DNA of 64,000 nucleotides from Ignavibacteriales bacterium (lineage in GTDB: Bacteria; Bacteroidota; Ignavibacteria; Ignavibacteriales; Melioribacteraceae), in contig JAPLFG010000003.1 in the NCBI GenBank assembly GCA_026390795.1, forward strand, positions 1,550,001 through 1,614,000, read 5' to 3'. The notes under the pieces are model-generated. The model was not told where the DNA came from. It saw only the letters and a list, made by a program, of their open reading frames with translations, and did not search any database. Below, piece after piece: positions 1 through 16,334 of this stretch; the first letter of the stretch is position 1, and each line of letters starts with the position of its first letter. Made by a program: the position numbers and the translations under genes.

Positions 1-603
1 GGAAATTTTATTTGTGAGTCTGCAGGATCAGTAGGTTTTTGTATCAAAGTTAAAGGGAAGGCTTCTCACTCCGGTTTAGCTCCTGAAAACGGAATTGACT
101 CTATCAAAATTGCCAGTGTTGCGATCAGCAAAATTAATTTAGGCAAAATCGATTCTGACACTACCGCAAATATCGGAATAATCAATGGAGGAACCGCCAC
201 TAACGTTGTTCCAGAATTAACTTCTATCCACGGTGAGATTAGATCAACAGTCCCTTCGAAGATTGACGTAAAACTTTCTGAGATAAAACATGAATTTATA
301 TCTACCGCTAAGTTATACGGCGGGGAATGTGAATTCGAGTCTTTTTGGAATTTCAAACCATATAAAATTACTCCTGATAACGAAACTTACAAAACGATTG
401 AGCGTGCAATAAGAAATGTAGGAATAATACCTATTCCTGAAATTTCAAAGGGAGGCAGTGATGCAAACTCTCTAAACACGAAAGGGATCCCTACGGTCAA
501 TCTTGGTATTGGTGCTGAGAATCCGCATGCAAATGATGAATACATCCTTTTCGAAGATCTCCAAAAAACTGCTGAAATAGCAATGGAGCTGATGAAAAAA
601 TGA
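1..603 (+). CDS. M20-family metallopeptidase (peptidase T-like), 5' truncated
   Basis: The reading frame is open from base 1 and stops at TGA 601-603, so about 200 C-terminal residues are present and the N-terminal metal-binding half lies outside the window. The visible part has the M20 dimerisation-domain signature (GKASHSGLAPENGIDSI, GGTATNVVPELTSIHGEIRS) and then the end of the catalytic domain (KGGSDANSLNTKGIP followed by NPHANDEYI, which carries the last metal-ligand His of the family). This pattern fits the peptidase T/PepT2-like branch of aminopeptidases that act on di- or tripeptides. Its stop overlaps the start of the following cyanophycinase by ATGA, so translation is coupled. In this setting it may act on aspartyl-arginine dipeptides, but that is inference; the substrate cannot be read from the sequence. 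Confidence 0.85.
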   Translation, partial: GNFICESAGSVGFCIKVKGKASHSGLAPENGIDSIKIASVAISKINLGKIDSDTTANIGIINGGTATNVVPELTSIHGEIRSTVPSKIDVKLSEIKHEFISTAKLYGGECEFESFWNFKPYKITPDNETYKTIERAIRNVGIIPIPEISKGGSDANSLNTKGIPTVNLGIGAENPHANDEYILFEDLQKTAEIAMELMKK

Positions 604-1469
604 AAATATTTAAACTTTTCTTATCCATTCTCCTCTTTAGTTCGTTTCTCTATTCTCAAACAAGAGGGAAACTATTTATTATCGGAGGCGGAACGGTACC
701 CGGCTATATGATCGACAAATATGTTGAACTTGCCGGAGGGAAGAATTCAAAATTTTTAGTAGTTCCTATGGCAAGCGGAGTGCCTCAGCAATCTGCTTCT
801 TCATTCATCAAAAAACTCCAAACAGCAGGATGTACAAAAGTAAAATATCTGATCAGCAATAAAGAAAGTGCCGATGCCGATTCTAATCTAATAAAATTAA
901 AAAACGTTACAGGCATTTACTTTACCGGGGGAGACCAATCAAAACTAATTGCCGCATTAACCGGGACAAAATTACTTGAAGGGATAAAAAATATTTATAA
1001 GAATGGTGGAGTTATCGGAGGAAGTAGTGCAGGTGCGGCGGTGATGAGCGGTATGATGCTTACCGGAAATGAACTTGTAAACAAAGATACAGTTAACGCG
1101 TTCAATATTATTGTAAAGGGGAATGTGCAGACGGTTGACGGGTTCGGTTTTATTAATAATGCCATAGTAGATCAGCATTTCATTAAAAGAAAAAGAATTA
1201 ATAGACTATTAACTCTGGTGCTAGAAAATCCGAAACTGGTTGGGATAGGAATTGATGAATCTACGGCTATTGTAGTTAATTCCGATGATACTTTTGAAGT
1301 AATTGGAGAAAGCCTGGTCACAGTATTCGACGCATCAAAGGTTAAAGATATTAGCACTGATAAAAATAATAACCTCTCTGCGAGCGATATAAGGATGCAT
1401 CTGTTAAAAAGCGGCGATGCATATAATATTAAAAGTCATGCGGTTACCCATAAAAGGGACAAGCAATGA
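600..1469 (+). CDS. cphB: Cyanophycinase (peptidase S51), exported
   Basis: This 289-residue protein begins with a clear signal peptide (about residues 1-19, ending FLYSQ). It has the S51 cyanophycinase layout: GGG near residue 30, TGGDQ at 109-113, the nucleophile elbow GGSSAGAA with Ser143 as likely nucleophile, and DQHFIKRKRINRL carrying the catalytic His. Family enzymes hydrolyse multi-L-arginyl-poly-L-aspartate to beta-Asp-Arg dipeptides. Length is normal for the compact cyanophycinases. It overlaps the M20 peptidase upstream and the YfcC transporter downstream by ATGA, so the three form a translationally coupled unit. The signal peptide points to a periplasmic enzyme, unlike the cytosolic enzymes of cyanobacteria that turn over their own polymer. 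Confidence 0.9.
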   Translation: MKIFKLFLSILLFSSFLYSQTRGKLFIIGGGTVPGYMIDKYVELAGGKNSKFLVVPMASGVPQQSASSFIKKLQTAGCTKVKYLISNKESADADSNLIKLKNVTGIYFTGGDQSKLIAALTGTKLLEGIKNIYKNGGVIGGSSAGAAVMSGMMLTGNELVNKDTVNAFNIIVKGNVQTVDGFGFINNAIVDQHFIKRKRINRLLTLVLENPKLVGIGIDESTAIVVNSDDTFEVIGESLVTVFDASKVKDISTDKNNNLSASDIRMHLLKSGDAYNIKSHAVTHKRDKQ

Positions 1470-2854
1470 AGAAAAATCTCAACTTTAATACACTCGTAAT
1501 GATATTTGCTGTAGTAGCGCTAGTTGCCCTGATAACCTGGATTGTACCGGGGGGCGAATATTCGAGAGAGATAAAAGATGGAAAAACTCTGGTAGTTCCA
1601 AACTCCTTTAAATATGTTGAGGGTAATCCGCAGGGGATCGGCGCTTTGTTCATGTCACCGTTAACCGGATTTGTGAAGGCAGCTGCCATAATTGGTTTTC
1701 TATTCATAATTGGAGGTGCGTTCAGTATAATCCAGAAAACTGGAGCCATTAAAGTTTCCGTTCAAAGACTGGCATACACATTTGCTAGAAAACCTCATCT
1801 GGAAAAATATTTCATTCCTATAACTATGATTATATTTTCAACTGCGGGAAGTATCTTCGCAAGTTCCGAAGAAGCCCTTCCATTCATTTTAATATTTATT
1901 CCTCTTGCATGGACTATGGGTTACGATTCAATTGTAGGAACAGCGATTCCATTTTTAGGATTAGCGGCCGGATTTGCAGGAGCTACTTTGAATCCGTTTA
2001 CCGTTGGCATAGCTCAAAGTATTGCCGAGTTGCCACTCTACAGCGGTCTCGGTTATAGAGTAATCATATGGCTTATAAGTACTGCGTCTATGATAACATT
2101 CGTTATGGTTTATGCTAAAAAAGTTAAAGCCAAACCTGAAATTAGCCCGATGTTCAGCTTTGACAATGAGCGTAAGAAAAGCATGAACCTAGATAATAAG
2201 GTTGATGCTACTTTCACAATTCAACACAAAATGGTTTTGTTATCATTCTTAGTTGCAATGGTAATTCTGATTGTCGGGATTCTTGGATTTAAATGGTACA
2301 TAACAGAACTTGGAGCTTTATTCCTGGCACTGGGTATTGTAGCGGGATTTGCAGGCAGATTAAATCTCAATCAAATGACAGATGCTTTCAAAGACGGCGC
2401 GAGAGATATGGTGGGGGTTGCCTTAATTATCGGTTGTGCCAGGGCGATTCTGGTAATAGCAACGGACGGTAAAGTTATCGATACGATGCTCTTCAGTCTG
2501 AGCGGATTAATAGTAAATCTGCATCCGGTAGTAGCCTCACAGGCCATGTTTGTTATGCAGGGCGTTATCAACTTTTTTGTTCATTCCGCTTCCGGGCAGG
2601 CTATGCTTACAATGCCCGTTATGTCTCCTCTGGCCGATGTGCTTGGAGTTTCACGGCAAATAGCTGTTCTGGCTTTTCAATTTGGCGAGGGATGGATAAA
2701 TCCTATTCTACCTACTTCCGGTGTTACGATGGGAGTTCTTGGACTGGCGGGCATACCATGGGATAAATGGTTCAAATGGATGCTTCCCGTACAATTATTC
2801 TTTTTCATTCTGGCACTTCTGCTGCTGATTCCCCCATTCTTTTTCAATTATTAA
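1466..2854 (+). CDS. YfcC-family (basic amino acid/C4-dicarboxylate type) transporter
   Basis: This is a 462-residue polytopic inner-membrane protein with about 11-12 hydrophobic segments, from a first helix around residues 11-30 to a last one at 440-460. The opening (ITWIVPGGEY just after the first helix) and internal stretches such as SSEEALPFILIFIPLAW and ILPTSGVTMG are typical of the YfcC/DcuC-like group, members of which are annotated as basic amino-acid antiporters or C4-dicarboxylate carriers. It starts inside the cyanophycinase stop codon (ATGA). Placed with a cyanophycinase and a peptidase, arginine, ornithine, aspartate or their dipeptide is the likely cargo. That cargo is inferred from position, not from binding residues. 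Confidence 0.8.
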   Translation: MKKNLNFNTLVMIFAVVALVALITWIVPGGEYSREIKDGKTLVVPNSFKYVEGNPQGIGALFMSPLTGFVKAAAIIGFLFIIGGAFSIIQKTGAIKVSVQRLAYTFARKPHLEKYFIPITMIIFSTAGSIFASSEEALPFILIFIPLAWTMGYDSIVGTAIPFLGLAAGFAGATLNPFTVGIAQSIAELPLYSGLGYRVIIWLISTASMITFVMVYAKKVKAKPEISPMFSFDNERKKSMNLDNKVDATFTIQHKMVLLSFLVAMVILIVGILGFKWYITELGALFLALGIVAGFAGRLNLNQMTDAFKDGARDMVGVALIIGCARAILVIATDGKVIDTMLFSLSGLIVNLHPVVASQAMFVMQGVINFFVHSASGQAMLTMPVMSPLADVLGVSRQIAVLAFQFGEGWINPILPTSGVTMGVLGLAGIPWDKWFKWMLPVQLFFFILALLLLIPPFFFNY

Positions 2855-2887
2855 ACGGAAGTATTTAAAAAATAGACAGGCTTAAAA

Positions 2888-3745
2888 ATGACAAGCTATA
2901 AAAAACTGAAAGAGAGAATTCAATTACACTACAACGAACTTCCTAAAAATCAAAAAAAGATTGCTGAATTTTTTCTCGAGAATTTCGATCATATCTCATT
3001 TCTTACCGTGCAGCAAGTTGCTGAGGCCACTTCAACAAATGTTGCCGCAGTTGTACGGTTCGCGCAGAGCATAGGGTTTTCCGGTTTCAGTGAAATGCGA
3101 GATGAAATTGTAGCGACACTTCAGAACCGGTTGCAAAGCAACAATGTTTTTCCACTGATTAAACCTTCTGAATTGGTTCACGATACATTAACAACGGTTG
3201 CTAATCAGGATATAACTAATATAAACGACACTTTGAACCTGAACGAAAGGGAAAATTACAATAAAGTAATTGATCTGATCATTAATTCCGAAAGAGTTTT
3301 TACAATCGGTCTGGGAATCTCACATTTACTCGCTCAAATTATTTCTTATCAACTTAATCAGATTGGTATTTTTTCCAATGTACTAACAAATAATCAATCT
3401 ACCTTTCTTGAGCAGATCCTTTTCATGAATAAAAAAGATTTAATAATTAATCTTTCATTTCCCCCATATTCAAAAACAACAATCGAAGCAGCAAAATACG
3501 CAAGTGGTAAAAAGATAAAAGTTGTCTCCCTGACAAATAAAAAATCATCTCCAATTACTTTTTTCTCAGACGTCAGTCTTATTATAAAAAGCGAAAATAT
3601 GTTATTCACAAATTCATTTGCGGCAATTTCAGTATTGATAAACGCAATTGTAACCGAATGCGCCCTGAGAAATAAACCGAAAGCCACTAAATGGTTAAGC
3701 GAACTTAAAAATATTACAAAAATTCAGGGCAATACAGTCGACTAA
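2888..3745 (+). CDS. MurR/RpiR-family transcriptional regulator
   Basis: This 285-residue protein has an N-terminal helix-turn-helix of the RpiR type (residues about 1-78; NQKKIAEFFLENFDHISFLT then VQQVAEATSTNVAAVVRFAQ) and a C-terminal SIS domain (about 120-255; FTIGLGISHLLAQIISYQLN). SIS domains of this family usually bind phosphosugars. The gene sits 33 bp after the transporter and 96 bp before the TonB receptor, inside a block concerned with peptide and cyanophycin breakdown, so it is the natural candidate for a local regulator. A sugar-phosphate ligand would be odd there; an amino-acid or other ligand is possible. No operator half-sites were convincingly found. Confidence 0.85.
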   Translation: MTSYKKLKERIQLHYNELPKNQKKIAEFFLENFDHISFLTVQQVAEATSTNVAAVVRFAQSIGFSGFSEMRDEIVATLQNRLQSNNVFPLIKPSELVHDTLTTVANQDITNINDTLNLNERENYNKVIDLIINSERVFTIGLGISHLLAQIISYQLNQIGIFSNVLTNNQSTFLEQILFMNKKDLIINLSFPPYSKTTIEAAKYASGKKIKVVSLTNKKSSPITFFSDVSLIIKSENMLFTNSFAAISVLINAIVTECALRNKPKATKWLSELKNITKIQGNTVD

Positions 3746-3841
3746 CTATTAATTGAAAAGTTTACCAAGCAGAAAGAGAGCTAGAAAATAAACGGTTAAT
3801 AATAATTCCATACGATAATGCATAGTAAGGAGATAGTCTGT

Positions 3842-6379
3842 ATGAAAGTTACAATAATTCATGTATGCCTATTGATGATCATATCTGTTTCCATAGCATT
3901 TGGCGGAACTACAGGAAAACTTGCCGGCAGGGTAACAGATAGGTTGACAGGTGAGCCTCTAATTGGGGCAAATGTGGTCATAAAATCTATTCAACCAAAT
4001 GCGGGCACAAGTACTGATATCGATGGTTATTACCACATTCTAAATCTCCCGCCAGGAAACTATGATGTTACAATCAGCTATATCGGATATGCCAGCACTG
4101 ATTACCGGATTTCGATTAAGGTGGATCAAACAACCGAACTTAATGTTCCCCTCAGTACTTCAACATTATTAGCCAAAGAAGTTGTCATAGTAGGTGAGCG
4201 TACTATTGTGCAAAGAGATAAAAGTTCCACTATTCAACGTACGGATGCCGAAGAACTTGCATCTATGCCGGTTAATACGCTTACGGGAGTATTGCAGCTC
4301 CAGACCGGTGTTGTCAATCAGGGTGGTGATATTCATATACGCGGCGGTCGCTCTGGGGAGGTTGGATACTATATAGACGGATATCGTGTTGAAGATCCAT
4401 TATTCAATGGCAATGTAATCGAAATAAATAATCAGGCAATTCAGGAGATGGAACTGCTATCAGGTACATTCAATGCCGAGTATGGAAATGCTCTATCCGG
4501 AATTGTGAATATTGTTACCAAAGACAATACCGACAAAATTAAAACGAATCTATCCTACAAACGAACAAAAGTTGGAATTGATGCATCGAGCGATAATTTG
4601 AATGAACGTTACATAGAAGGAACATTCAGCGCACCACTCGGGGAAGGAAGTCCTTTCGGAGTTATGATATCAGGTAAAAAAGTTAATGCAGACAGCTATT
4701 ATTTTTCCGGAATATCGCAGCTTACCGCCAACGGTTTACAGTCGGTGGAATTTTCTAAAGATAATCCGTATGGATTTAACGACCAATCTTCTTTAATAGG
4801 CAAGTTTTTATGGACTCCTTTTAGTGGGGCCAAAGTAACATTACTTGATAACTACTCTTTTAGAAAGAACAGATCTTATAATCATATTATGCGTTTTATC
4901 CCAGACAGTACTTATATCAATGAATCAGAGAGCAACCTTATTGGATTAAATTTCCGCCACGCAGTTTCAAACGACCTCTTTTATGATATACGTCTTTCTT
5001 ATTATCAATACTCTTATCTACGCAGAATAAACGGATGGAGTCCGGATCAATATACATTTCCTTCCTATTCAACATTTTCAAACAGTCTTTTCTACCGCAA
5101 TATGTCTCAGACTGTTTATGAGAATCAAAAAACAAAATCATATTCTGCTAAAGCAGACATGACCTGGCAAATAGATAGATTTAATCTTGTAAAGGCTGGT
5201 TTTGAATTTAAATCAAATGATTTAGATTATTATTATATCGCAAACCCTAAAAATTTAACAGATCAGACAGTCAACATTTACAGAAAGAAACCATTCGAAG
5301 GATCCTTGTATGCTCAGGATAAAATTGAATTTGAAACTATCATTCTTAATGTGGGATTAAGGTATGATTTCTTTGACCCAAGTACTTCTTTTGCGGCCGA
5401 TCCACTCAAACTCTCTGTACTGACTGAAACAAAAATGAAATCTTCCTTAAGTCCACGCGTAGGAATTGCGTACCCGGTTCGTGAAAATATGGTTTTCCAC
5501 TTTGCATACGGACAATTTTTCCAGAGACCAGAATTTCAAACGCTGTATAATAATTTGGAAAGAGCATTTGCCAACCGGGGAACAACATTATTTGGTTCTC
5601 CAGCACTTGAACCGGAAAAAACATCAAGTTATGAGCTTGGAATGACCACTTCATTTGGAACTGGCTCTTCATTACAGATTACATTTTTCAGCAAAAAGAT
5701 AGAAAACCTGATTGGTGTAGTTTGGAACTATACTCCACTGGCCTACGCATATTATATGAATGAAGATTTTGCGTCGGTGAAGGGTTTAGAAACCGGAATA
5801 AAGACTAGATTTCATAATTTTTATTTTACAGCTAATTATACCTACTCGATAGCAAAAGGAAGTTCATCAACACAGCAGCAACGCTATACAAGTGTATATA
5901 ATATAGTGGGTGTTCAATCTCTTAAATTCCTTTCTTTAAATTTTGATCAGAGACATACAGCTAATATCCAAGTTGCCCTTGATTTTGGAAACGGAGAGGG
6001 ACCGTTTGGATTTTTGCCATCTATCTTCGAGAATACATCAATAGATCTGATTGGACAATATGGAAGCGGGTTGCCTTACACTTTTAATCCAGCCAGGGCA
6101 ATTTATGTAGCTGAACCAAATAACGCCCGGCTTCCGGAAAGAATCTCTTTTGACCTTTATGCACGGAAGAGTTTTAAAGTTGGTCCGACGGAACTTGGTT
6201 TATTCCTGGATATTCGAAATCTGCTTAATCGTAAAAATATTGTTTCTGTTTACTCGGCTACTGGTTCACCTGATGTGACGGGCGATCAAACAAATAAAGC
6301 TACTCCTGATTATATGCAGGATCCGACGAATTATGCTTCACCCCGGACAATTTATGTCGGTATAGATATTAAGTTATAG
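3842..6379 (+). CDS. TonB-dependent receptor with carboxypeptidase-regulatory domain
   Basis: An outer-membrane receptor of 845 residues. I choose the ATG at 3842 because AAGGAG lies 9 bp upstream and a signal peptide follows directly (MKVTIIHVCLLMIISVSIAF); the in-frame ATG at 3818 would add eight residues ahead of it. After the signal come a carboxypeptidase-regulatory-like domain (about 23-105, LAGRVTDRLTGEPLIGANV), a plug domain (about 120-230, GGDIHIRGGRSGEVGYYIDG) and a 22-strand-type barrel ending in the terminal beta-strand YVGIDIKL. No SusD partner is adjacent; instead a secreted 642-residue protein and a PorV-like protein follow at short spacing. Likely role: energised import of cyanophycin oligomers or Asp-Arg peptides, inferred from context. 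Confidence 0.85.
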   Translation: MKVTIIHVCLLMIISVSIAFGGTTGKLAGRVTDRLTGEPLIGANVVIKSIQPNAGTSTDIDGYYHILNLPPGNYDVTISYIGYASTDYRISIKVDQTTELNVPLSTSTLLAKEVVIVGERTIVQRDKSSTIQRTDAEELASMPVNTLTGVLQLQTGVVNQGGDIHIRGGRSGEVGYYIDGYRVEDPLFNGNVIEINNQAIQEMELLSGTFNAEYGNALSGIVNIVTKDNTDKIKTNLSYKRTKVGIDASSDNLNERYIEGTFSAPLGEGSPFGVMISGKKVNADSYYFSGISQLTANGLQSVEFSKDNPYGFNDQSSLIGKFLWTPFSGAKVTLLDNYSFRKNRSYNHIMRFIPDSTYINESESNLIGLNFRHAVSNDLFYDIRLSYYQYSYLRRINGWSPDQYTFPSYSTFSNSLFYRNMSQTVYENQKTKSYSAKADMTWQIDRFNLVKAGFEFKSNDLDYYYIANPKNLTDQTVNIYRKKPFEGSLYAQDKIEFETIILNVGLRYDFFDPSTSFAADPLKLSVLTETKMKSSLSPRVGIAYPVRENMVFHFAYGQFFQRPEFQTLYNNLERAFANRGTTLFGSPALEPEKTSSYELGMTTSFGTGSSLQITFFSKKIENLIGVVWNYTPLAYAYYMNEDFASVKGLETGIKTRFHNFYFTANYTYSIAKGSSSTQQQRYTSVYNIVGVQSLKFLSLNFDQRHTANIQVALDFGNGEGPFGFLPSIFENTSIDLIGQYGSGLPYTFNPARAIYVAEPNNARLPERISFDLYARKSFKVGPTELGLFLDIRNLLNRKNIVSVYSATGSPDVTGDQTNKATPDYMQDPTNYASPRTIYVGIDIKL

Positions 6380-6426
6380 ATAACTAGGATGAACTCGTTT
6401 CATCATTCTTTTTAGGAGAATAAAAT

Positions 6427-8355
6427 ATGAGAACGAATTTAAAAACAATATTTCTTGCAATAGCTATTCTTGTTGGTTCATTGGATGCCCAATATCGCCC
6501 AGACGCTCGTGAAAGTAAAGATGAGTATAGACAGCTCTCAAAAACAGCTGCACCAATCGATAGAGCACAAAATGTGATTAGCATAAATCAGCTGGGGCAG
6601 GTTGTTACTAATATGGGTCAATGGCATCCATATACAGGAGTCTTTCCGCGAGGCCGATGGCCAATTACTACCAACCACGATCAGATTTATAAGATGTCAT
6701 TTTTTATCGGCATTCCTTATAATGTTGCTAATGCAAGAGGAAACGGTACAAAAGAATGGGATCCGCTTTCGGGAAATCATAATCCTATTACAGGAAAAAT
6801 TGCAATCAGTACTGATAAAACTACCTGGCCATTAAATAATTCTGATCAGGCTTATTGGCCGGTTAGAACAACTGATGGACGTGACAGCATTGTTTCTCAA
6901 CAAGATACATATTGTCAATACAATGACAATACAAATGCACGTCCCGAGAAACTTAATATTCAGGTAACGCAGACAAGTTATGCGTGGAGTACATCCAAAG
7001 ATCAGGATTATATTATCTGGAAATTAGAAATATACAATAATACCAGTACACCGAAAGATAGTCTCTACTTTGGCTTGTATTACGATTATGATGCCGGCGG
7101 AATTACAAACGAGTATGACAACGATTATTATGTTTTTGATCAAGAAAAACAATTGACATATGTCGTTGGTCCTACCGGGACAACCGGCTGGGAACCCGGA
7201 TCAAAACCTTTCTTATTAGGACTTAAGTTTTTAGAAACACCGATGGTTGATTCGAGAGGGTGGGTTGTAAATCAGAATGGAACCAGAATGGGAATTACTG
7301 ACTGGCATTACAGCGGTGTCTATAGTTCCGCCTGGGGTGATAACCCTACTGACGATATTATATTCTTTGATTGGGTCAGCAGTAATCAACGGCTTAGGAA
7401 CAATGCTTCAAGACCAAATCTGTTCCATGGAACGAATAGAAGAATTGATGATTGGCGTCTGCAGGATTTAGTTAATGGCACTCAACCCGGTGGTGATGGA
7501 GTAGATGGTGTTGCATCAAGTGGTCCATATCATATGGAACCATTTCAGAAGATGACTTTCATTTTTGCTCAAGTTGCGCAGCAGACCGAGAGTCAATTAT
7601 ACCAAGTAGCTGATCGTGCCAATCAGATTTATAACAACGGATTACAATTAGTTCCGCCGTCGAAACCAACTTTGACATTTACAGCCTATGATAATTCTGT
7701 TACTCTAAAATGGGGCAATGATAAAGAATTTTCATATAAAGATTTGAGAACCGGTAAATCTGCTGTTAAGGAATACCGGATTTATAAAACAAAAGATCCA
7801 AACCGGGAAATATGGGGTAATCCGGTTGCTGTCATTAAAAGAGACTCAACAAAAAATACTATTATTAGTGATCTTTATCAGTGGCAGGATAACATTGACA
7901 TAAAAAATTATTTCTACTATTCGTACGCAGTTACAGTTTATGATGTTGACGGACTTGAATCAGGTAAAGCATTACTTCCGGCAGATAAGACAGCTGAAGA
8001 AAATGTTGTAGAAGCAAGACCGGTCAGTTCTCCTAGATCTTCTCTTGGTGACATTAAAGTTGTACCAAATCCATATATAATTTCTGCAACATGGGAAAGA
8101 AAAAGATTAGGGGACCCTAAACTGGGTGAACCGATTCGTGATATTGCTTTTACTAATCTGCCTGCACAATGTACTATTAATGTCTACACGATTGATGGAA
8201 ACCTCGTTAAAACCATCGAGCATTCAAACGGAACCGGAACAGAATTTTGGGACTTAAGATCATTCTCTAATCAACTTATTGCCTCCGGAATTTATGTCTA
8301 TCATGTTAAATCAGATGCTGGAGAAAAGGTCAGCAAATTCGCCGTAGTGCGTTAG
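6427..8355 (+). CDS. Secreted protein with C-terminal FlgD-like/sorting-type domain, function unknown
   Basis: A 642-residue exported protein (signal peptide to about residue 21, LVGSLDAQ) with a strong AGGAG site 7 bp upstream. The middle is rich in Trp, Tyr and Asp and resembles large beta-rich surface proteins. Residues about 415-515 look like a fibronectin type III-like module (TLTFTAYDNSVTLKWGNDKE). The C-terminal 100 residues hold a FlgD-like beta-sandwich typical of Ignavibacteria secreted proteins (IKVVPNPYI ... INVYTIDGNLVKTIEH ... ASGIYVYHVKS). It lies 47 bp after the TonB receptor and just before a PorV-like gene, an arrangement that suggests a surface-exposed partner of the receptor. 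I do not recognise an enzyme in it. A binding role for the imported substrate is speculation. Confidence 0.7.
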   Translation: MRTNLKTIFLAIAILVGSLDAQYRPDARESKDEYRQLSKTAAPIDRAQNVISINQLGQVVTNMGQWHPYTGVFPRGRWPITTNHDQIYKMSFFIGIPYNVANARGNGTKEWDPLSGNHNPITGKIAISTDKTTWPLNNSDQAYWPVRTTDGRDSIVSQQDTYCQYNDNTNARPEKLNIQVTQTSYAWSTSKDQDYIIWKLEIYNNTSTPKDSLYFGLYYDYDAGGITNEYDNDYYVFDQEKQLTYVVGPTGTTGWEPGSKPFLLGLKFLETPMVDSRGWVVNQNGTRMGITDWHYSGVYSSAWGDNPTDDIIFFDWVSSNQRLRNNASRPNLFHGTNRRIDDWRLQDLVNGTQPGGDGVDGVASSGPYHMEPFQKMTFIFAQVAQQTESQLYQVADRANQIYNNGLQLVPPSKPTLTFTAYDNSVTLKWGNDKEFSYKDLRTGKSAVKEYRIYKTKDPNREIWGNPVAVIKRDSTKNTIISDLYQWQDNIDIKNYFYYSYAVTVYDVDGLESGKALLPADKTAEENVVEARPVSSPRSSLGDIKVVPNPYIISATWERKRLGDPKLGEPIRDIAFTNLPAQCTINVYTIDGNLVKTIEHSNGTGTEFWDLRSFSNQLIASGIYVYHVKSDAGEKVSKFAVVR

Positions 8356-8375
8356 TAATGAAAAAGGAATCTACT

Positions 8376-9389
8376 ATGAAAACTAAAATTAATAGAATCG
8401 TTTTCGTCATTTTATGGATTAGTGTAACGGCAGTTTCCTATGGTCAAGGATTTAGCAATGTGGGATCTGCAAGTGCAAACTTTCTTAAAATTCCTGTTGA
8501 ACCGGTTGGTGCAGCATTAGGCAATTCCAACGTTGCTACTAACCAGGGAATCCTTGGTCTTTATTGGAATCCCGGTGCGATTGCATATACAGAGGGAACT
8601 GAAATTCTTCTTTCTCAGGTGAATTGGATAGCTGATACACATGTTTCATTTCTTGGTGCAACGCACAGTTTAGGTTTTGGTGTGATTGGATTGAGTATTA
8701 CTGCTTTGACTGTTGGAGAGATGGAGATTACCACTGAAACGGCCCCAAATGGAACCGGTACGTTTTTCAATTCAGGCAGTTATGCTTTTGGTCTTTCTTA
8801 CGGAATGAAAATAATTGACCGTTTTAGTTTCGGCGGAACTGTAAAATATATCTATGAGTACATTTGGGAAACTCACGGCTCGACACTCTTATTTGATCTT
8901 GGTTCCGTATATCAGACAGATTTTTATAACATGCGCATCGGAATGAGATTAGCGAATTTTGGCGGCAATGTAAAATTTGCCGGAGACCCTATTGATAATA
9001 AATCTCAAGTTATTGCTGAATCCGGTATTTCATATCCTTACGATCCTCGCCTGGACAGAATTTCTCCCGAATATCAATTACCGCAACTATTTAATGTTGG
9101 AATATCGATCGATCCAATTCACATGGAAGATCATCGGTTAAGTATTACCGCTGCCGTCAATGATCCCAATGATAATAACACTCAATTGGTTTTCGGAAGT
9201 GAATATGCATGGCATGATATGCTCTTTCTAAGAATGGGATATAAATCCGGTTATGATGAACAAAATATAAGTGCTGGTTTAGGCGTTAAAGTAATGGTCG
9301 GAAACATTACTCCTCAAATTGATTTTGCTTATTCAGCATTTGGAAAATTGGGAAGTGTTTTATTTCTAAGCATGCGATTGGGATTATAA
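8376..9389 (+). CDS. PorV/PorQ-family outer-membrane protein
   Basis: A 337-residue protein that begins at the ATG at 8376, chosen because AAGGA sits 7 bp upstream and a signal peptide follows (IVFVILWISVTAVSYGQG). An upstream in-frame ATG at 8358 lacks a site. The N-terminal segment GSASANFLKIPVEPVGAALG followed by GLYWNPGAIA is the hallmark of the PorV/PorQ family, 14-strand FadL-like barrels that in T9SS bacteria shuttle or anchor sorted cargo at the outer membrane. The rest alternates short beta-strands as expected for a barrel. Position after a TonB receptor and a secreted protein, and just before two T9SS-tagged proteins, fits a dedicated delivery or anchoring role for this locus. Confidence 0.8.
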   Translation: MKTKINRIVFVILWISVTAVSYGQGFSNVGSASANFLKIPVEPVGAALGNSNVATNQGILGLYWNPGAIAYTEGTEILLSQVNWIADTHVSFLGATHSLGFGVIGLSITALTVGEMEITTETAPNGTGTFFNSGSYAFGLSYGMKIIDRFSFGGTVKYIYEYIWETHGSTLLFDLGSVYQTDFYNMRIGMRLANFGGNVKFAGDPIDNKSQVIAESGISYPYDPRLDRISPEYQLPQLFNVGISIDPIHMEDHRLSITAAVNDPNDNNTQLVFGSEYAWHDMLFLRMGYKSGYDEQNISAGLGVKVMVGNITPQIDFAYSAFGKLGSVLFLSMRLGL

Positions 9390-9465
9390 AAAATGCAAAT
9401 CGTATTACGGCTTAATGAACTAAAGTATTGATTGATCATATAGTTTTGATATTGAGAATGGAGAA

Positions 9466-11493
9466 ATGAAGAAAAATTTATTTTATATATATTTTCTATT
9501 GGTCACAATATCGGTCTATCCGCAAGGATCGGTTCTTCTTGTAGGAGGAGGAACGGAAAATTATGGAGACTGGTCAGATCAGCCTTATAAATGGTTTGTA
9601 GAGCACGCTCCAAACCAAAAAATATTAGTTCTATCTTACGCCGATACTACAACATGGTTTTCAGGATATTTCCCTTCTCTCAGTCAATGTAAAGTCTCAA
9701 ATAAATTTATCAGTTCAACAGCACAGGCAAACGACTCCTCAATTTATAGATTGATTCTTCAGCATGATGGAATATTTCTCCGCGGAGGGGATCAGGCGCA
9801 GTATGTCTCTAAATGGAAGAACACTTTAACACAAAAAGCCATTAAGGAAGTATTTCAGCGCGGGGGAGTAATTGGAGGAACAAGCGCCGGAGAGATGGTT
9901 CTTAGTAATGTCTCTTACACATCAGGCAGTACAGATAATGGTGCCATTCTTAGAAACCCAAATGCAACGATAAATCTGGAAGAAGATTTTTTACCTTTTG
10001 TACAAAACGCTATTGCGGAGAGTCATACGAATGAAAGAGGAAGGCTTGGAAGGCTGCCCGTCTTTCTTGCCCGCTACAAAGATTCAAAAGGAAAAGAGAT
10101 CACAGGAATTGCTGTTGATGCGAATACTGCTGTAGCTATTGATCAGAACGGAATTGGCCAGGTGATGGGCGGCAGTGCTGTAGCATTATTAAGATGGAAT
10201 CCAGATACAAAATTCACGATCGAACCCGGACGATCTTTTTCAATTCAGAATATGAACTTTGATCAACTATTACCCGGCTGGAAATTCAACTTTAAGACTG
10301 GTGAGATCGAAAAATTATCTACGGCAGCGGCTTTTAACCCTAAACAAATTTCTTCTCCTAAAGGAACAATAATATTAGATGGAAGCGGCAGCATATCGGA
10401 TTGGTCAGCTGCAACAGGAAGTCTGAAAAAATTTAAGTCTGTCTTGAAAAATTCTACTGATATAGTGGGAATATTTTCATCGCCATTGTCAGTAGCAACC
10501 GCAGGTGCAATTAGCTCGGCATTGAATTCTTTTGGTTCAAATACAAAAATTCTTTTGGTAAATGAATCGCGGAAAAATGATTCACAGTTTACTTCCGATG
10601 CAAATCTTTGCGGGGCCTTTATTTTTGCCGGGAACTCGCTTGATAGTTTAGCTGGTTTCTTCAATTCTTCAACATCAATAGGACAAATGTTGAATGCAAA
10701 GATACAAGATGAAAAACCGCTTCTATTTCTTTCGGAAGATGTAATGCTTGCTGGTGAAAAAGTAATCGGCGGAATCTATGGCAGTCAATACAGTGCATAC
10801 TATGGAACAATTACACAGTTGATCGGTCTTGATCTTATCAAAGGGATTCAATTTGTCCCGCGCTTTTATCAAAACCTGAATAACTCTATAGGATATGATT
10901 ATTCGGAGAATAGAATTGATGGTTTATTCTGGTCAATGGCAAAATCTAAGCTTCCATACGGGATGATTATTGATGCTGGTACTTATATGATCTTTTCAGA
11001 TGGAAAATTTTATGTCGAAGGAGTTTCTCCGACTTCAACTTCAGTAATTATGATTGATGCACGCAAAGTCCAATGGATTGATTACCCGGTTTTTCATAGA
11101 CCGGGAAGACCGAATGCAGTAAATAATGCGGCATTGATTGGTGCTTCGCTAAACATAATACGACCGGGAGATTCAAACCCTCTTACTAGTCTAAGACAAG
11201 AAAGAAATCTTGCACCAAATTCATTTTGTCTCGAGCAGAATTATCCAAATCCGTTTAATCCCACAACTACATTGCGCTATTCTATTTCTGAACCCGGAAT
11301 AGTTACGCTGAAAATATATGACATCCTTGGACGCGAAGTTGCATCGTTACTTAACGATCACATTGATGCCGGAATTTATGAAACACATTGGGATGCTTCC
11401 AGAAATGCAAGCGGGATATATTTTGCCCAACTTAATTATTCATCGAAGGGTACAATTAGTAGTAAAACAAATAAACTCGTTTTAAATAAATAG
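9466..11493 (+). CDS. T9SS-secreted cyanophycinase-like S51 peptidase
   Basis: A 675-residue protein with a signal peptide (to about residue 20), an S51 domain in the N-terminal 270 residues, a middle region of about 300 residues, and a T9SS type A sorting domain at the C-terminus (LEQNYPNPFNPTTTLRYSI ... KIYDILGREVASLL ... ASGIYFAQL). S51 motifs are complete: GGG at 27-29, LRGGDQ at 105-110, GGTSAGE with Ser140 as nucleophile, and ESHTNERGRLGRL bearing the His. Its His-region (ESH rather than DQH) and long insert set it apart from the compact enzyme at 600-1469. The sorting domain implies release or attachment outside the cell, where it could attack cyanophycin from dead cyanobacteria. The middle region resembles a second degenerate Rossmann-like unit, and its role is unknown. 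Confidence 0.85.
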   Translation: MKKNLFYIYFLLVTISVYPQGSVLLVGGGTENYGDWSDQPYKWFVEHAPNQKILVLSYADTTTWFSGYFPSLSQCKVSNKFISSTAQANDSSIYRLILQHDGIFLRGGDQAQYVSKWKNTLTQKAIKEVFQRGGVIGGTSAGEMVLSNVSYTSGSTDNGAILRNPNATINLEEDFLPFVQNAIAESHTNERGRLGRLPVFLARYKDSKGKEITGIAVDANTAVAIDQNGIGQVMGGSAVALLRWNPDTKFTIEPGRSFSIQNMNFDQLLPGWKFNFKTGEIEKLSTAAAFNPKQISSPKGTIILDGSGSISDWSAATGSLKKFKSVLKNSTDIVGIFSSPLSVATAGAISSALNSFGSNTKILLVNESRKNDSQFTSDANLCGAFIFAGNSLDSLAGFFNSSTSIGQMLNAKIQDEKPLLFLSEDVMLAGEKVIGGIYGSQYSAYYGTITQLIGLDLIKGIQFVPRFYQNLNNSIGYDYSENRIDGLFWSMAKSKLPYGMIIDAGTYMIFSDGKFYVEGVSPTSTSVIMIDARKVQWIDYPVFHRPGRPNAVNNAALIGASLNIIRPGDSNPLTSLRQERNLAPNSFCLEQNYPNPFNPTTTLRYSISEPGIVTLKIYDILGREVASLLNDHIDAGIYETHWDASRNASGIYFAQLNYSSKGTISSKTNKLVLNK

Positions 11494-11546
11494 ATCATTA
11501 GCGTATTGGTACCATTAACTATCATTTATAAACAACGGAGGACACA

Positions 11547-13439
11547 ATGAAATCTCGTTTACTAATTGGGATTCTTCTTTTACTCAGCGTACTTTTTATA
11601 GCGCCTATATCTGTTAACGCTCAGACGTTAACTGGGAACAAAATTGTTGGAACAGGGGGAGATTATACATCTCTTGCCGCTGCAATTACAGATATCAACA
11701 CAAAAGGTGTTGCGGGAACATTAACATTATTAATCAACGGAGATTTAACCGAAACAGGCGTTCATGAAATTACATCTACAACATTAACAGGTACCAACAA
11801 TCTTATTATTAAACCAAATACAGGCAAAACTCCAACAGTTACATTTACAGCCTTAACAACATCCGGTACTGGCGGAAATGCCGGACTTGCTGTTTCCGGT
11901 GCTACCACAAATGTCGGTAATATTACTGTGGATGGTTCCAATACGACTAATGGTACAACAAGAGACATGACTTTCGCCCTTAATGATGCTGCAGCGGGAC
12001 GTTATGGATTCAGACTAAATGGAGAAACTGATAATATTACAATCAAGAATTTGAAAATAATTGCGGCTGCAATTCTGCCGACTACCGCCAGCGGCTCAAG
12101 AACTTACGGTGTTTATGCGGTGGCTTCGTCTACTGCTGCAGCAGATAATCTAACAGTCACAAATTGTCAGATCGGCAGTAATACAGCACCATTCTACTAT
12201 GGCCTCTATAAACCTGATGGAGGAACTTTTCCTTTCGGTTCAACATTAACAGTTTCGAAAAATGAAGTTTTTGCGCAGCATAAAGGATTAAGCATTTGGG
12301 GAACAGATGGTACAAGCAACATAAATGATAATACAATCTCGATGATGGGTCATCCAACAGGAGCCTATGTTCAAAACTCCGTTAATGGTATTTACGTTGA
12401 AACATGGAAGGGCACATTAAACGTATTCAATAACAAGTTAATCGCTTTGAATTGCAAAGCTGTTACTCAAACTGCAACCAAAGCTTTATACGGCATACTT
12501 GTATATTTTGCCTCGGGGTATTCAATTACCGGACAAACTGCGAATGTTTACAATAATTTTATAAGCAATTTCTCTTATGCAGGTGATGCGACAACAACCG
12601 CGTCTGAAGTAATTGGAATTGCAGTTGATGCTCTTGATAATAATGTTAATGTTTATTTTAATACAGTTTACATGAGCAACGTTACCACAAATCCTGTTTA
12701 TGGAATTCGCGTTTATGATGATGCTGGTCTTTCTGCAAATGTTAAAAATAACATCATTGTTAATACAGTCAATCAGGATAATGCTTATGCTATTTATGTT
12801 GACCCGATTGTAAATAATGCACTTAAAACATCCGACTATAACGATCTTATTGTTACTGGTGCTAGCGCAAATGTAGGCTACTACAATAGTGCTAAATACA
12901 AGGCTATGACGGATTGGAAAACTGCTTCAGGTAAAGATGCTAACAGTATAAGCATCAATCCCGCAAATCCTTTTGGCGCTGCCGGACAATTGACAAGTCT
13001 AACAGATCTTCATTGGGTTTCTAAGCCGGCTGCTTCTTTTGGCGGAACTCCAATAACAGGATTTACAACCGATATTGACGGAACAACAAGAAGCACAACA
13101 AAACCATATATGGGCGCTGATGAAGGCGCAGCATTAACAAGTGTAAAACTTGACGGCAATATAATCCCAACTGAATTCGCTCTTGAACAGAATTATCCAA
13201 ATCCGTTCAACCCGAGTACTGTTATTAATTATAAACTTTCTAGTAATGCACATGTAACATTAAAAGTATATGACATTCTTGGTAAAGAAGTCGCAACTTT
13301 GGTAAATGAATTCCAACAGGCAGGTGCTTATAAAGCATCATTCTCTACATTAAATTCTTCGTTGGCAAGCGGAATTTATCTTTACCGATTACAGGCCGGA
13401 TCATTTGTTGATGTAAAGAAAATGATTCTTGCTAAATAG
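11547..13439 (+). CDS. T9SS-secreted beta-helix-like repeat protein
   Basis: A 630-residue secreted protein (signal peptide to about residue 26, ISVNAQ) with GGAGG 5 bp before the ATG. The body, about 30-540, is rich in Asn, Thr, Val and Gly with repeated short strands (NLTVTNCQIGSNTAPFYYGL, NVNVYFNTVYMSNV), a pattern of right-handed parallel beta-helices of the pectate-lyase-like kind. The C-terminal 85 residues are a T9SS type A sorting domain (LEQNYPNPFNPSTVINYKL ... KVYDILGKEVATLVN ... KKMILAK). It lies 53 bp after the T9SS cyanophycinase and ends at a strong terminator. No catalytic residues could be identified, so it may be a binding or surface protein as easily as an enzyme. Confidence 0.75.
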   Translation: MKSRLLIGILLLLSVLFIAPISVNAQTLTGNKIVGTGGDYTSLAAAITDINTKGVAGTLTLLINGDLTETGVHEITSTTLTGTNNLIIKPNTGKTPTVTFTALTTSGTGGNAGLAVSGATTNVGNITVDGSNTTNGTTRDMTFALNDAAAGRYGFRLNGETDNITIKNLKIIAAAILPTTASGSRTYGVYAVASSTAAADNLTVTNCQIGSNTAPFYYGLYKPDGGTFPFGSTLTVSKNEVFAQHKGLSIWGTDGTSNINDNTISMMGHPTGAYVQNSVNGIYVETWKGTLNVFNNKLIALNCKAVTQTATKALYGILVYFASGYSITGQTANVYNNFISNFSYAGDATTTASEVIGIAVDALDNNVNVYFNTVYMSNVTTNPVYGIRVYDDAGLSANVKNNIIVNTVNQDNAYAIYVDPIVNNALKTSDYNDLIVTGASANVGYYNSAKYKAMTDWKTASGKDANSISINPANPFGAAGQLTSLTDLHWVSKPAASFGGTPITGFTTDIDGTTRSTTKPYMGADEGAALTSVKLDGNIIPTEFALEQNYPNPFNPSTVINYKLSSNAHVTLKVYDILGKEVATLVNEFQQAGAYKASFSTLNSSLASGIYLYRLQAGSFVDVKKMILAK

Positions 13440-13448
13440 TTTTATGAT

Positions 13449-13489
13449 AACCAGCGAGGAATAATAATCCAATTATATTCTCGCTGGTT
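13449..13489 (+). other. Inverted repeat (hairpin) after the beta-helix gene
   Basis: AACCAGCGAG at 13449-13458 pairs perfectly with CTCGCTGGTT at 13480-13489 around a 21-base loop. It lies 10 bp after a stop codon and 14 bp before a second, stronger hairpin. There is no long T-run, so it may be a transcript-stabilising 3' hairpin or the first part of a tandem terminator. Confidence 0.55.
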
Positions 13490-13502
13490 TATGATTTCAC
13501 AA

Positions 13503-13543
13503 GAGATGGGCGATGAAACTCGCCCATCTCATAATATTTTTTT
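13503..13543 (+). terminator. Rho-independent terminator
   Basis: GAGATGGGCGA (13503-13513) pairs perfectly with TCGCCCATCTC (13520-13530) around the loop TGAAAC, and a T-rich tail ending in seven T follows at 13537-13543. It separates the upstream secreted-protein genes from the carboxypeptidase and rules out the ATG at 13513, inside the stem, as a start. Confidence 0.85.
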
Positions 13544-13569
13544 ACTTACCTGATAATGGTTCTATCCAA

Positions 13570-15060
13570 ATGAAAAAATTAATTTTATTTTTTTTGCTCG
13601 GTTCTATAGCTATCAATGCTCAGATCAAGACTCCCTTGGAAAAGTCAAACTATTCCAAACTTACATCAAATTCCGAGTTGATAAACTTTGTAAAGCAATT
13701 ACCGGGTCTTTCAAAATTTATCACATTTGATACACTTGCAATATCACCGGAAGGGAAATTAATTCCCTTACTTAAAATATCTAAAAATAGTTTTGGTAAA
13801 TCAAAAGGAAAGATAAAAGTCCTGATATTTGCTCAGCAGCACGGAAACGAGCATTCGGGTAAAGAAGCCGCATTGATTCTTTTAAAACAGATTACATTGG
13901 GAAAGCTAGATTTCATATTTGACAAAATAGATCTACTGCTAGTCCCTCAGATGAATCCTGATGGTAATGATAAGGATCAAAGAAAAAACGGCCACGAGGC
14001 AGACCTAAATAGAAATCATCTGATTCTAACAGAGCCCGAGGTGATTGGCTTGCATAAAGTTTTCAATCAATATTTGCCTGAAGCAACTTTGGATCTTCAT
14101 GAGTATGGGCCATTCAGTAAAGACTGGATGAATTTTGGTTACAGGAAAGATTATGATGAACAAATAGGAAAGCTTACAAACCCTAACATTTATAAACCTC
14201 TCTTAGAATATCAGAACAAAAAATATCTGCCTTATATTAAAAAGTTTCTTGATAAGTCCGGATTCAGTTCTAATGAGTATGCTGTTGGTGGTCCTCCCGA
14301 TAAATCACGATTGAGATATAGCACTGTGGATATTAATGATGGAAGGCAAAGTTTTGGAATACTAAATACTTTTTCATTTATAATTGAAGGAAAAAATGGA
14401 AGAGAATCATTAGATAATATAAAAAAAAGGGCAGAAGGGCAGTACACGGCTATTCTGGGATTTCTAAAATTCATTCATGATAATAATTCGTCACTAAAAA
14501 AAATAGTTACGGAAGGCAGGAATATTCTTAAAAAAAAGATACAGGAAGATGTTTCTATTCAAATGGAACATATCGGTGATGGCAGACAAAAAATGAACAT
14601 GCTTTCCGTTAAAACAGGCAAGGATACGACAATTGATGTTGTAAATTATCATACAAAGGTTGAATCAATCCTAAAAGTCAATAAACCGCTAGGTTATTTA
14701 ATTCCTAAAACTGAAAGCGAACTGATCTCTTTACTTCAAAGAAACAATGTTAAAATTGCAACTTACAACCGAAAAAATTCGGATCAGATTCAGGAATACT
14801 ATATCATAAAAAAACTAAAAACAAAGCTTGAAGAATTGTATATCAATACACCGGTTGTTGAACTGAAGGATGCTGCTGAGATAGAATCTGATAAATATTT
14901 TTTCGTTCCTCTAACTCAGATTTATTCAAATATGTTAGTGCTTCTTTTTGAACCTCAATCTATGATGAATCTATTGCAATATGAAAAATTTTCATATCTG
15001 CTTAAGGAGAACGATTACTATCCAATATTGCGGGTGATTGAAAAGAAAAAGAACAATTGA
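13570..15060 (+). CDS. M14-family zinc carboxypeptidase, exported
   Basis: A 496-residue protein from the ATG at 13570, where a signal peptide begins (MKKLILFFLLGSIAINAQ). A longer frame from 13513 would begin inside a terminator stem and is rejected. M14 signatures are clear: HGNE (His91 and Glu94, zinc ligands), NPDGNDKDQRKN and DLNRNH (substrate-binding Arg/Asn), LDLHEYG (His177, third zinc ligand) and IIEGKNG carrying the likely general-base Glu. The domain covers about residues 30-310; the remaining 180 residues are unassigned. Family members remove C-terminal residues from peptides or hydrolyse amidated side chains. In this locus it could trim arginine-rich peptides in the periplasm, which is inference. 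Confidence 0.85.
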   Translation: MKKLILFFLLGSIAINAQIKTPLEKSNYSKLTSNSELINFVKQLPGLSKFITFDTLAISPEGKLIPLLKISKNSFGKSKGKIKVLIFAQQHGNEHSGKEAALILLKQITLGKLDFIFDKIDLLLVPQMNPDGNDKDQRKNGHEADLNRNHLILTEPEVIGLHKVFNQYLPEATLDLHEYGPFSKDWMNFGYRKDYDEQIGKLTNPNIYKPLLEYQNKKYLPYIKKFLDKSGFSSNEYAVGGPPDKSRLRYSTVDINDGRQSFGILNTFSFIIEGKNGRESLDNIKKRAEGQYTAILGFLKFIHDNNSSLKKIVTEGRNILKKKIQEDVSIQMEHIGDGRQKMNMLSVKTGKDTTIDVVNYHTKVESILKVNKPLGYLIPKTESELISLLQRNNVKIATYNRKNSDQIQEYYIIKKLKTKLEELYINTPVVELKDAAEIESDKYFFVPLTQIYSNMLVLLFEPQSMMNLLQYEKFSYLLKENDYYPILRVIEKKKNN

Positions 15061-15119
15061 AGTGGCTACAAATATATTATCCGTAAATAATTATAATTTT
15101 AAAACAGTTTGAGGAATTG

Positions 15120-16334
15120 ATGTTAACAAAAGATTATATCGAGCTAGAAGAAAAATATGGAGCGCATAATTATCATCCTCTTCCGGTAGTACTTACAAGA
15201 GGAGAGGGCGCATATGTATGGGATGTTGAGGGGAAAAGATATTTCGATTTCCTTTCTGCATATTCGGCTGTAAATCAAGGGCACTGTCACCCCAAAATTG
15301 TTAAGGCAATGACAGAACAAGCAAAGATATTAACACTAACCTCGAGAGCGTTCTATAATAATACTCTCGGGGAGTATGAAAAATATATAACCGAGTATTT
15401 TGGCTATGATAAAGTCCTTCCAATGAATTCCGGTGCTGAAGCTGATGAAACAGCTCTCAAACTCGCAAGAAGATGGGCTTATGATAAAAAAGGTGTTCCA
15501 GAAAATGAAGCTAAGATTATTGTCTGTGAGGGAAATTTTCATGGAAGAACAATTACCGTAATCTCAATGTCGAATGACCCCGATTCATACAAGGGATTTG
15601 GTCCATATACGCCGGGATTTATTAAAATTCCGTATAATGATCTGAATACACTTTCGAGAGCGCTGGAAGATCCTAATGTTGCGGGATTCTTAGTGGAACC
15701 AATACAGGGCGAAGCCGGTGTATTTGTCCCAGACGAAGGCTACCTTTCAAAAGCATATGAACTGTGTAAATCGAAAAATGTATTATTCATCGCTGATGAA
15801 GTTCAGACAGGATTAGCTCGGACCGGTAAGATGCTTGCCTGCGATCATGAAAATGTCAAACCCGATATTTTAATTTTAGGCAAGGCTCTTTCAGGAGGAA
15901 CAATGCCGATATCCGCAGTACTTGCGAATGATGAAATAATGCTGGTAATAAAACCTGGTGAGCATGGTTCAACATTTGGCGGAAATCCTCTTGCATCCAA
16001 AGTTGCAATTGCCGCTCTTCAAGTTTTAAAAGATGAAAAATTGGCAGAGAATGCGGAGAGGCTTGGAAAAATATTTCGTGATGAACTTCGAAACACCAAG
16101 TCAGAGATGATTGAATTAATTCGCGGTAAAGGATTGTTAAACGCGATGGTGATCAAGCCAACTATTGATAAAGAAGCGTGGGATGTGTGCTTGAAGATGC
16201 GTGATAATGGCTTACTAGCAAAACCAACTCACGGTAACATTATTCGCTTTGCACCTCCTTTGATTATTAATGAAGAACAAATATTAAGTGCTGTGGAGAT
16301 AATCAGAAAATCAATTATGGAGTTGGGCAGTTAA
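15120..16334 (+). CDS. rocD: Ornithine aminotransferase
   Basis: A 404-residue class-III PLP aminotransferase. I take the ATG at 15120 over the TTG at 15117; GAGGA lies just upstream. The N-terminus ([33 protein letters not shown]) and [17 protein letters not shown] are characteristic of ornithine-oxo-acid transaminase, and the PLP lysine sits in [10 protein letters not shown]. The enzyme converts ornithine and 2-oxoglutarate to glutamate-5-semialdehyde and glutamate in the cytosol. It follows the M14 peptidase by 59 bp. As the last gene of the block it provides the exit route for arginine carbon and nitrogen, although no arginase or arginine deiminase lies in the window. Confidence 0.93.

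Follow-up and report, generated by a model that had tools for sequence, protein, structure and literature searches.

The window analysed here is a stretch of 64,000 nucleotides (C3:1550001-1614000) of the 4.08 Mb genome of an Ignavibacteriales bacterium. It opens with a run of genes that includes an M20 peptidase, two proteins of the S51 (cyanophycinase) family, designated S51a and S51b, a YfcC-type transporter, an RpiR-family regulator, an outer-membrane uptake set, an M14 carboxypeptidase-like protein and an ornithine aminotransferase (OAT). Open reading frame (ORF) translations and profile scans place all of the genes from M20 to OAT on the + strand within positions 1-16334 (Table 1), as an earlier, sequence-only reading of this DNA had reported, and the uptake set does lie inside the same operon, as that reading also held. 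The left edge of the window cuts the M20 gene, which is complete at L003:17515-18603 and starts 485 bases before the window. M20, S51a and YfcC are joined by 4-base overlaps, the subsequent gaps as far as OAT span 2-76 bases, and 587 bases separate OAT from the next gene. The locus is a real, conserved operon, and because identical order recurs in many genomes the gene set goes beyond chance.

Table 1. Genes of the operon, with positions in the window
Feature	Coordinates	Strand	Basis
M20 (PepT-like) peptidase, 3' part	1..603	+	profile matches, conserved neighbourhood
S51a cyanophycinase	600..1469	+	TIGR02069 195.6 bits; residues invariant in 14 rows
YfcC/DcuC-type inner-membrane transporter	1466..2854	+	profiles; beside S51a in M20-, IadA- and IaaA-type loci
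RpiR-family regulator	2888..3745	+	profiles, neighbourhood
TonB-dependent receptor, non-SusC type	3818..6379	+	profiles, neighbourhood
Protein with type IX secretion system (T9SS) tail, fold unassigned; between TonB receptor and PorV-family gene in cassettes	6427..8355	+	profiles
PorV/PorQ-family outer-membrane protein	8358..9389	+	NF033709 181.8 bits (cut-off 90)
S51b, T9SS-tailed cyanophycinase relative	9466..11493	+	profiles, alignment, model
Second T9SS-tail protein	11547..13439	+	relatives' loci compared
M14 metallocarboxypeptidase-like protein	13513..15060	+	profiles
Ornithine aminotransferase (OAT)	15117..16334	+	TIGR01885

The sequence-only reading counted two S51 cyanophycinases, of which S51a stands by both cut-off and residues. 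It exceeds the TIGR02069 cyanophycinase cut-off of 126.6 bits and begins, by reading, with a signal-like sequence. Residues Q113, S143, D191, Q192, H193, R197, R199, R202 and E220 are invariant in 14/14 alignment rows, and relative to CphB (3en0) the Gln, Ser, Asp-Gln-His, three Arg and Glu are retained at equal spacing. In CphB the critical residues besides Ser132 are Gln101, Asp172, Gln173, Arg178, Arg180 and Arg183, and in the extracellular CphE a Thr replaces Gln173 (PMC3235067). The motif DQHxxxRxRxxR is found in 28/28 and GG[DN]Q in 26/28 of the S51a proteins on M20 contigs (one duplicate included), and neither occurs in any of five weak S51 proteins. These residues support the assignment of S51a as a cyanophycinase.

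The claim does not hold in the same way for S51b, which scores 83.7 bits, below the cut-off, and is without the catalytic Glu. Its T9SS sorting tail is clear (39.8 bits, cut-off 23), and Gln110, Ser140, His187, Arg191, Arg193 and Arg196 are retained. At the position of the catalytic Glu the window protein has Ala219 and G013 has Tyr, with Ile in G089 and Asp in the remaining 10/13 rows, and the triplet that reads Asp-Thr-His in 10/13 rows is Glu-Ser-His in the window and G089 and Asp-Ser-His in G013. A structural model (mean pLDDT 84.5) matches CphB structures over residues 21-284 with Z of 26-27. S51b may be a slow enzyme or a surface binder. A second S51 domain, suspected from a second match in one G023 frame, is not claimed, because the fold comparison mainly covered residues 21-284 and 584-675.

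The M20 protein scores 264.3 bits against TIGR01883, below the curated cut-off of 274.25, with Pfam M20 domains above cut-off, and no signal sequence is seen in it by reading. Positions that we take to be its metal ligands are invariant in the alignment. The YfcC protein falls below the cut-off of NF008611 (369.4 against 500) and above that of the DcuC Pfam family (329.7 against 23.1). The TonB receptor reaches 78.7 bits as SusC (TIGR04056, cut-off 368.25), and no match to the SusD family was found among the scanned operon proteins.

A scan of 149 genomes of the class with TIGR02069 gave matches in 44, 24 of them above cut-off. Around the stronger matches the genes recur as a cassette in the order M20-S51a-YfcC-(T9SS 370 aa)-RpiR-TonB-T9SS protein-PorV, often followed by S51b and M14. 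Outside the class, genome contigs were scanned with an S51a alignment and the best 80 of 586 relatives were retained, that is, loci chosen by S51a likeness; within this set cassettes occur also in Calditrichota, KSB1 and unplaced metagenome-assembled genomes, and the closest named S51a relatives are mostly Ignavibacteria. Synteny in relatives, which the sequence-only reading had named as a check, is borne out. L094 and L099, whose contigs equal G148 C32 and G013 C13 in length, are taken as copies of these; they were dropped from the 28-locus, 104-contig and palindrome counts and from the tree, and kept in the 106-contig and 28-S51a motif counts. In G013 (S51a or M20) and in G089 (S51a), genes missed by longest-ORF calling were recovered by a hidden Markov model map. 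Across the 28 M20 loci, S51a is found in 27, RpiR in 25, YfcC in 23, TonB in 19, the T9SS 370-aa protein and the T9SS protein in 17 each, PorV in 16, S51b in 12, M14 in eight, OAT and SusC in two each, and IadA, IaaA and CphA in none. Since many contigs end within the cassette, these counts are lower bounds. In G004 and G025 a SusC-type receptor and a 514/515-aa neighbour stand where other loci have the TonB, T9SS and PorV genes. Against the SusC model the receptor of G004 reaches 531 bits (cut-off 368), and its 514-aa neighbour is SusD-like by eye, with no Pfam or NCBIfam match. The logic of a polysaccharide utilization locus (PUL), which the sequence-only reading had seen here, is thus supported by these two relatives.

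The same reading listed M20 merely as a peptidase and suggested that an isoaspartyl dipeptidase or arginase might lie just upstream of base 1. Family searches of the genome found no IadA, PF01112 or arginase-family gene in the 18 kb before base 1 (C3:1532001-1550000). By reading, that stretch contains the start of M20, genes for a P-type ATPase and for a protein with a T9SS tail, and transporter and glycosyl genes; M20 is the only one among them that was run against family profiles. No IadA scores above cut-off in any of 25 genomes: the TIGR01975 matches in 24 are short, weak and sub-threshold, and the window genome has no match. M20, which overlaps S51a, apparently takes the dipeptidase position that IadA or IaaA holds elsewhere, and is the best candidate for the missing enzyme. 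Among 104 S51a contigs, 27 carry M20, 19 carry IadA or IaaA (either strand) and none carries both, an exclusivity that is modest (hypergeometric P 0.007, with 15 same-strand IadA/IaaA cases and kinship ignored); the 80 outside loci had been chosen for likeness to the cassette S51a. In three Holophagaceae loci (L151, L156 and L161) the order is RpiR-TonB-S51a-M14-IadA-YfcC, without M20; the IadA of L151 scores 504.9 bits (cut-off 331), those of L156 and L161 are seen by an E. coli IadA profile only, and the TonB matches are weak (80-127 bits). Exported cyanophycinases together with an isoaspartyl dipeptidase have been reported in an Acidobacteriota study (PMC8528874). YfcC accompanies both types of S51a contig, being found on 23 with M20, on six with IadA or IaaA and on three with neither (L105, L131 and L169), and on none with CphA.

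The link between M20 and S51a also appears across whole genomes. At E 1e-40 the M20 profile matches in 33/149 class genomes, 18 of which score at least 485 bits, and 15 of those 18 contributed rows to the profile. A strong cyanophycinase-family gene (above cut-off, or 95 bits in G035) is found in 18/18 genomes with M20 of at least 485 bits, against 7/131 others. As an independent check, 345 genomes of the phylum were scanned for M20 of at least 485 bits, and S51a was sought on the stretches fetched around the matches. Nine new genomes have such an M20, and S51a lies on the fetched stretch in eight of them, directly adjacent to M20 in seven and separated from it by two synthetase-like genes in G425; the ninth, G370, has a synthetase-like gene and YfcC. 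S51a likewise adjoins M20 in three more distant genomes (M20 347-350 bits). In a tree of 48 M20 proteins the S51-linked label needs 6 changes, as compared with a shuffled mean of 9.2, and 2/500 shuffles are as low. The S51 linkage is clustered on the M20 tree but is not one clade.

Several observations weigh against the dipeptidase role of M20 and the cyanophycin reading built around it, beyond the modest exclusivity. In the remaining 15 M20-matching class genomes the M20 score is 230-450 bits and TIGR02069 finds nothing; the surroundings of the weak M20 genes were sampled except for G015, G045, the second G025 copy and nine family f3 genomes. Seven lower-scoring M20 genes (G096, second copies in G043 and G004, G054, G073, G125 and G320) are without S51a on their stretch, and a G148 copy lies near a contig end where S51a is not seen. 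Conversely, 49/106 S51a contigs, copies included, have neither M20 nor IadA, IaaA or CphA on the same strand at a distance of up to 12 kb, and L108 has S51a, RpiR, TonB, the T9SS protein and PorV with neither M20 nor YfcC in view. S51b, with Glu absent, departs from the CphE-like set of a Ser-His-Glu triad, Gln and three Arg. M14, a broad-sense relative of the CphZ dipeptidases, shares the operon. Half of the leaders (14/28) fall below the threshold for the palindrome discussed below. PF01112 is also nearly ubiquitous, with a gene in 24/25 genomes, and no M20 cassette, as far as it is in view, contains one. Two such genes are present in the window genome, both unlinked, at C3:1305808 (385 bits, IaaA-type) and C3:1517287 (240 bits). 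As is the case in many bacteria, an unlinked IaaA-type enzyme could carry out the final step, leaving M20 as an accessory. This is considered unlikely, given that five genomes (G021, G031, G051, G089 and G131) have only the lower-scoring PF01112 type (224-245 bits), G041 (88% complete) has no PF01112 gene, and M20 overlaps and tracks S51a.

With these points included, there is a slightly better than even chance that M20 represents an unrelated further family of cyanophycin dipeptidase, and a candidate for the one awaited in Bacteroidota, with YfcC as its dipeptide importer and the module recurring in f24 synthetase-like clusters. It has been noted that the isoaspartyl dipeptidases accompanying cyanophycin synthetase in Firmicutes and Bacteroidota remain undiscovered (PMC10206079). 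The window group is counted with Bacteroidota in some schemes, and NCBI separates it as Ignavibacteriota.

Other arrangements of these families were seen alongside the cassettes. M20-YfcC pairs without S51 lie at L204:4335-7990 and L205:3281-5863, with an Asparaginase_2 gene (206 bits) as neighbour in L204, and could possibly form a module for other beta-aspartyl compounds. L196:9006-17999 and L197 hold an M14-M20-PorV-T9SS-protein set without S51a, to which L196 adds a Na+/H+ antiporter-family protein; this is perhaps a sister peptide-uptake locus. In Flavobacterium, L128:8057-13035 has OAT on the other strand, an Lrp/AsnC regulator and S51a, followed by a member of the penicillin amidase family that might serve as the dipeptidase. 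In Gelidibacter, a different, distant M20 protein (L122:10863-12176) lies between S51a, which it follows directly, and an S51 with a T9SS tail.

The M14 protein is a real rival for the final cleavage, because the known hydrolases of the cyanophycin dipeptide are annotated as M14 or AstE/AspA. In this alternative the operon still serves cyanophycin, M14 is a CphZ-like dipeptidase and the role of M20 is confined to trimming longer fragments or ordinary peptides. Hydrolysis of cyanophycin dipeptides has been shown for enzymes with the annotation M14 or succinylglutamate desuccinylase/aspartoacylase (PMC10206079). The window M14 is a distant carboxypeptidase-like protein (PF00246 49.4 bits, cut-off 21.6) with a weak match to PF24827 (AstE_AspA; 20.9, below the cut-off of 25). 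Its HxxE motif and a later His, presumably zinc-related residues, are invariant. However, its matches in the PDB comprise carboxypeptidases and related proteins, with no cyanophycin dipeptide hydrolase named among them, and from its probable start at 13570 a signal-like sequence is read, such that the protein appears exported. It is in view in only eight of the 28 M20 loci, many contigs ending before its position, and it stands beside IadA in Holophagaceae and beside M20 in the window, so that it does not behave as an alternative to either. The M20 and M14 profiles of the window do not match each other. For these reasons M14 as the dipeptidase is regarded as improbable.

The source of the polymer was addressed through cyanophycin synthetase. 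A synthetase above cut-off is found in 6/25 genomes, all of family f7, with S51 adjoining and, in three, an IaaA-type gene nearby. None is above cut-off in the 17 genomes with M20 cassettes, and therefore the polymer would be foreign. A different arrangement is found in G425 (L191:3-7556), with S51 (168 bits, above cut-off), two divergent synthetase-like genes (340 and 364 bits, cut-off 850), M20 and YfcC in order and no uptake genes in view. Its M20 nests inside the main cassette clade, and the arrangement therefore ties M20 and YfcC to cyanophycin-type metabolism. The synthetase-like pair, being unlike standard CphA, also fits a locus that imports some other isoaspartyl or Asp-rich peptide, for instance peptides released from damaged proteins or a polymer resembling cyanophycin. 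Among the matches of the M20 profile is a poly(aspartic acid) hydrolase (7ljh), and other isoaspartyl compounds can be substrates of S51 enzymes (PMC9239234). Given that S51a keeps the cyanophycin-binding residue set, such a substrate is judged a doubtful and quite improbable alternative.

The operon is thus likely, though by no means certain, to serve the use of cyanophycin from other organisms, with M20 as the dipeptidase. In short, T9SS-tailed S51b would cleave or bind the polymer at the cell surface, and the TonB receptor, together with the T9SS and PorV-family proteins, would import fragments across the outer membrane. Exported S51a would cut these to beta-Asp-Arg, YfcC would move the dipeptide inward, and cytoplasmic M20 would split it into Asp and Arg, replacing IadA or IaaA. 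In the window strain, Arg may then proceed via an arginase encoded elsewhere and the OAT of the operon.

The operon is probably under the control of its own RpiR regulator. In about half of the cassettes a palindrome like TGTAATANNTATTACA lies before the first gene: a score of at least 12/14 is found in 14/28 leader regions, 0/171 internal regions and 0.34% of shuffled leaders. Given that the palindrome was discovered in the loci first scored, seven new cassettes provide a separate check; three score at least 12 and five at least 11, and M20 genes without S51a score at most 10. The palindrome tracks the leader gene, being upstream of M20, of S51b (G004, G025 and G035) or of RpiR (L104 and L120). 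The window genome has two copies, at L003:17467-17482 and 17496-17511 (two or more in 4/200 shuffles). Over the whole genome, eight sites, including the leader copy, match the palindrome with no more than one mismatch, against four for a reversed control. One more site, with one mismatch, is seen at 52590-52605 of the window, where about 0.9 chance sites are expected at two mismatches. The shared operon suggests that RpiR may bind the palindrome. The conservation of the leader palindrome and of gene order around S51a across phyla also bears on whether this is an ordinary peptide-scavenging locus in which S51 has an incidental place. Numerous relatives of the T9SS protein (6427-8355) and M20 relatives without S51 are what such a locus might have, and yet that conservation makes it very improbable.

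The OAT gene, which the sequence-only reading had included in the conserved pathway, did not hold up as a core member of the cassette. The window OAT is secure in identity (688.2 bits against TIGR01885, cut-off 378.4), but it is on the contig in 2/28 M20 loci, and a second OAT (683.6 bits) lies elsewhere in the genome at C3:568849; it is a lineage-specific addition. OAT is above cut-off in 12/15 other cassette genomes searched, and only that of G089 is near the cassette, on the other strand. The arginase-family genes of the window genome, at C3:1082827 and C4:127973, are unlinked. OAT also lies near S51a in Flammeovirga, on the same strand, and in eight Flavobacterium loci, on the other strand and before S51a; among these outside loci its identity was assigned by NCBIfam in L126 and L128 only. 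These placements lend some weak independent weight to the idea of a path from arginine to glutamate.

The complex described by Ben Hania et al. in 2017 is reportedly called PUL-like in their abstract. The name 'cyanophycin utilization locus', for cyanophycinases, iadA and a transporter, is credited to that work, and a Flammeovirga cluster is named with it (PMC10206079). A PUL-like cyanophycin locus is therefore not the new type of locus that the sequence-only reading took it to be, having been described in 2017 as cited there. The loci of L21-Spi-D4 (Salinivirga cyanobacteriivorans) and Flammeovirga pacifica WPAGA1 likewise have cyanophycinases and a transporter, and are read as scavenging foreign cyanophycin (PMC10206079). 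The window locus shares cyanophycinase, transporter and the absence of synthetase with this definition, but it is without iadA or iaaA, and has instead M20, YfcC, RpiR, M14 and a TonB receptor that is not of SusC type and is paired with a PorV-family protein. In Flammeovirga, locus L126 has S51b, SusC, S51a, IaaA, YfcC and OAT. Paired S51 enzymes, one Por-tailed, have been noted (PMC6243061), and the window likewise pairs S51a with tailed S51b. A TonB receptor for cyanophycin was proposed in 2012 (PMC3400609). With SusC/SusD polysaccharide loci the operon shares a surface protein, TonB uptake, a periplasmic enzyme, an inner-membrane carrier and a local regulator, but it has no SusC above cut-off and no SusD match. 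The CphA-CphB-IaaA storage clusters of family f7 use the same S51 family, with S51 beside true CphA in six genomes, but have no M20 at E 1e-40. The cyanophycin dipeptide hydrolases named CphZ (PMC12661447) are also a dipeptidase family linked to cyanophycin genes by neighbourhood (PMC10206079), but CphZ is of M14/AstE-AspA type and M20 is not. The neighbours listed in the available part of PMC10206079 are S9, M14 and cocaine-esterase-like proteins, not M20, and no proposal that links an M20 peptidase to cyanophycin was found among the papers listed in literature searches, most subscription papers being outside their reach. The idea of a cyanophycin scavenging locus is not new; the window locus is a variant, and the M20 dipeptidase candidate is its new element.

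The locus supplies an assayable dipeptidase candidate, and for that pathway it also predicts an importer and an operator; the cassette marks uncultured bacteria that may live on cyanophycin, rather than only store it. The T9SS protein at 6427-8355 has 14 matched pieces in the window genome, in about eight reading frames counting itself and several in the tail region only; its relatives are numerous in the genomes compared. Its structural model was too poor (mean pLDDT 56.2) and was not used. The second T9SS-tail protein has a full-length counterpart elsewhere only in the relative G089, among the class loci compared. A plasmid search gave no match. After the operon, at 16922-17950 of the window, lies a protein that by reading is Fic-domain-like.

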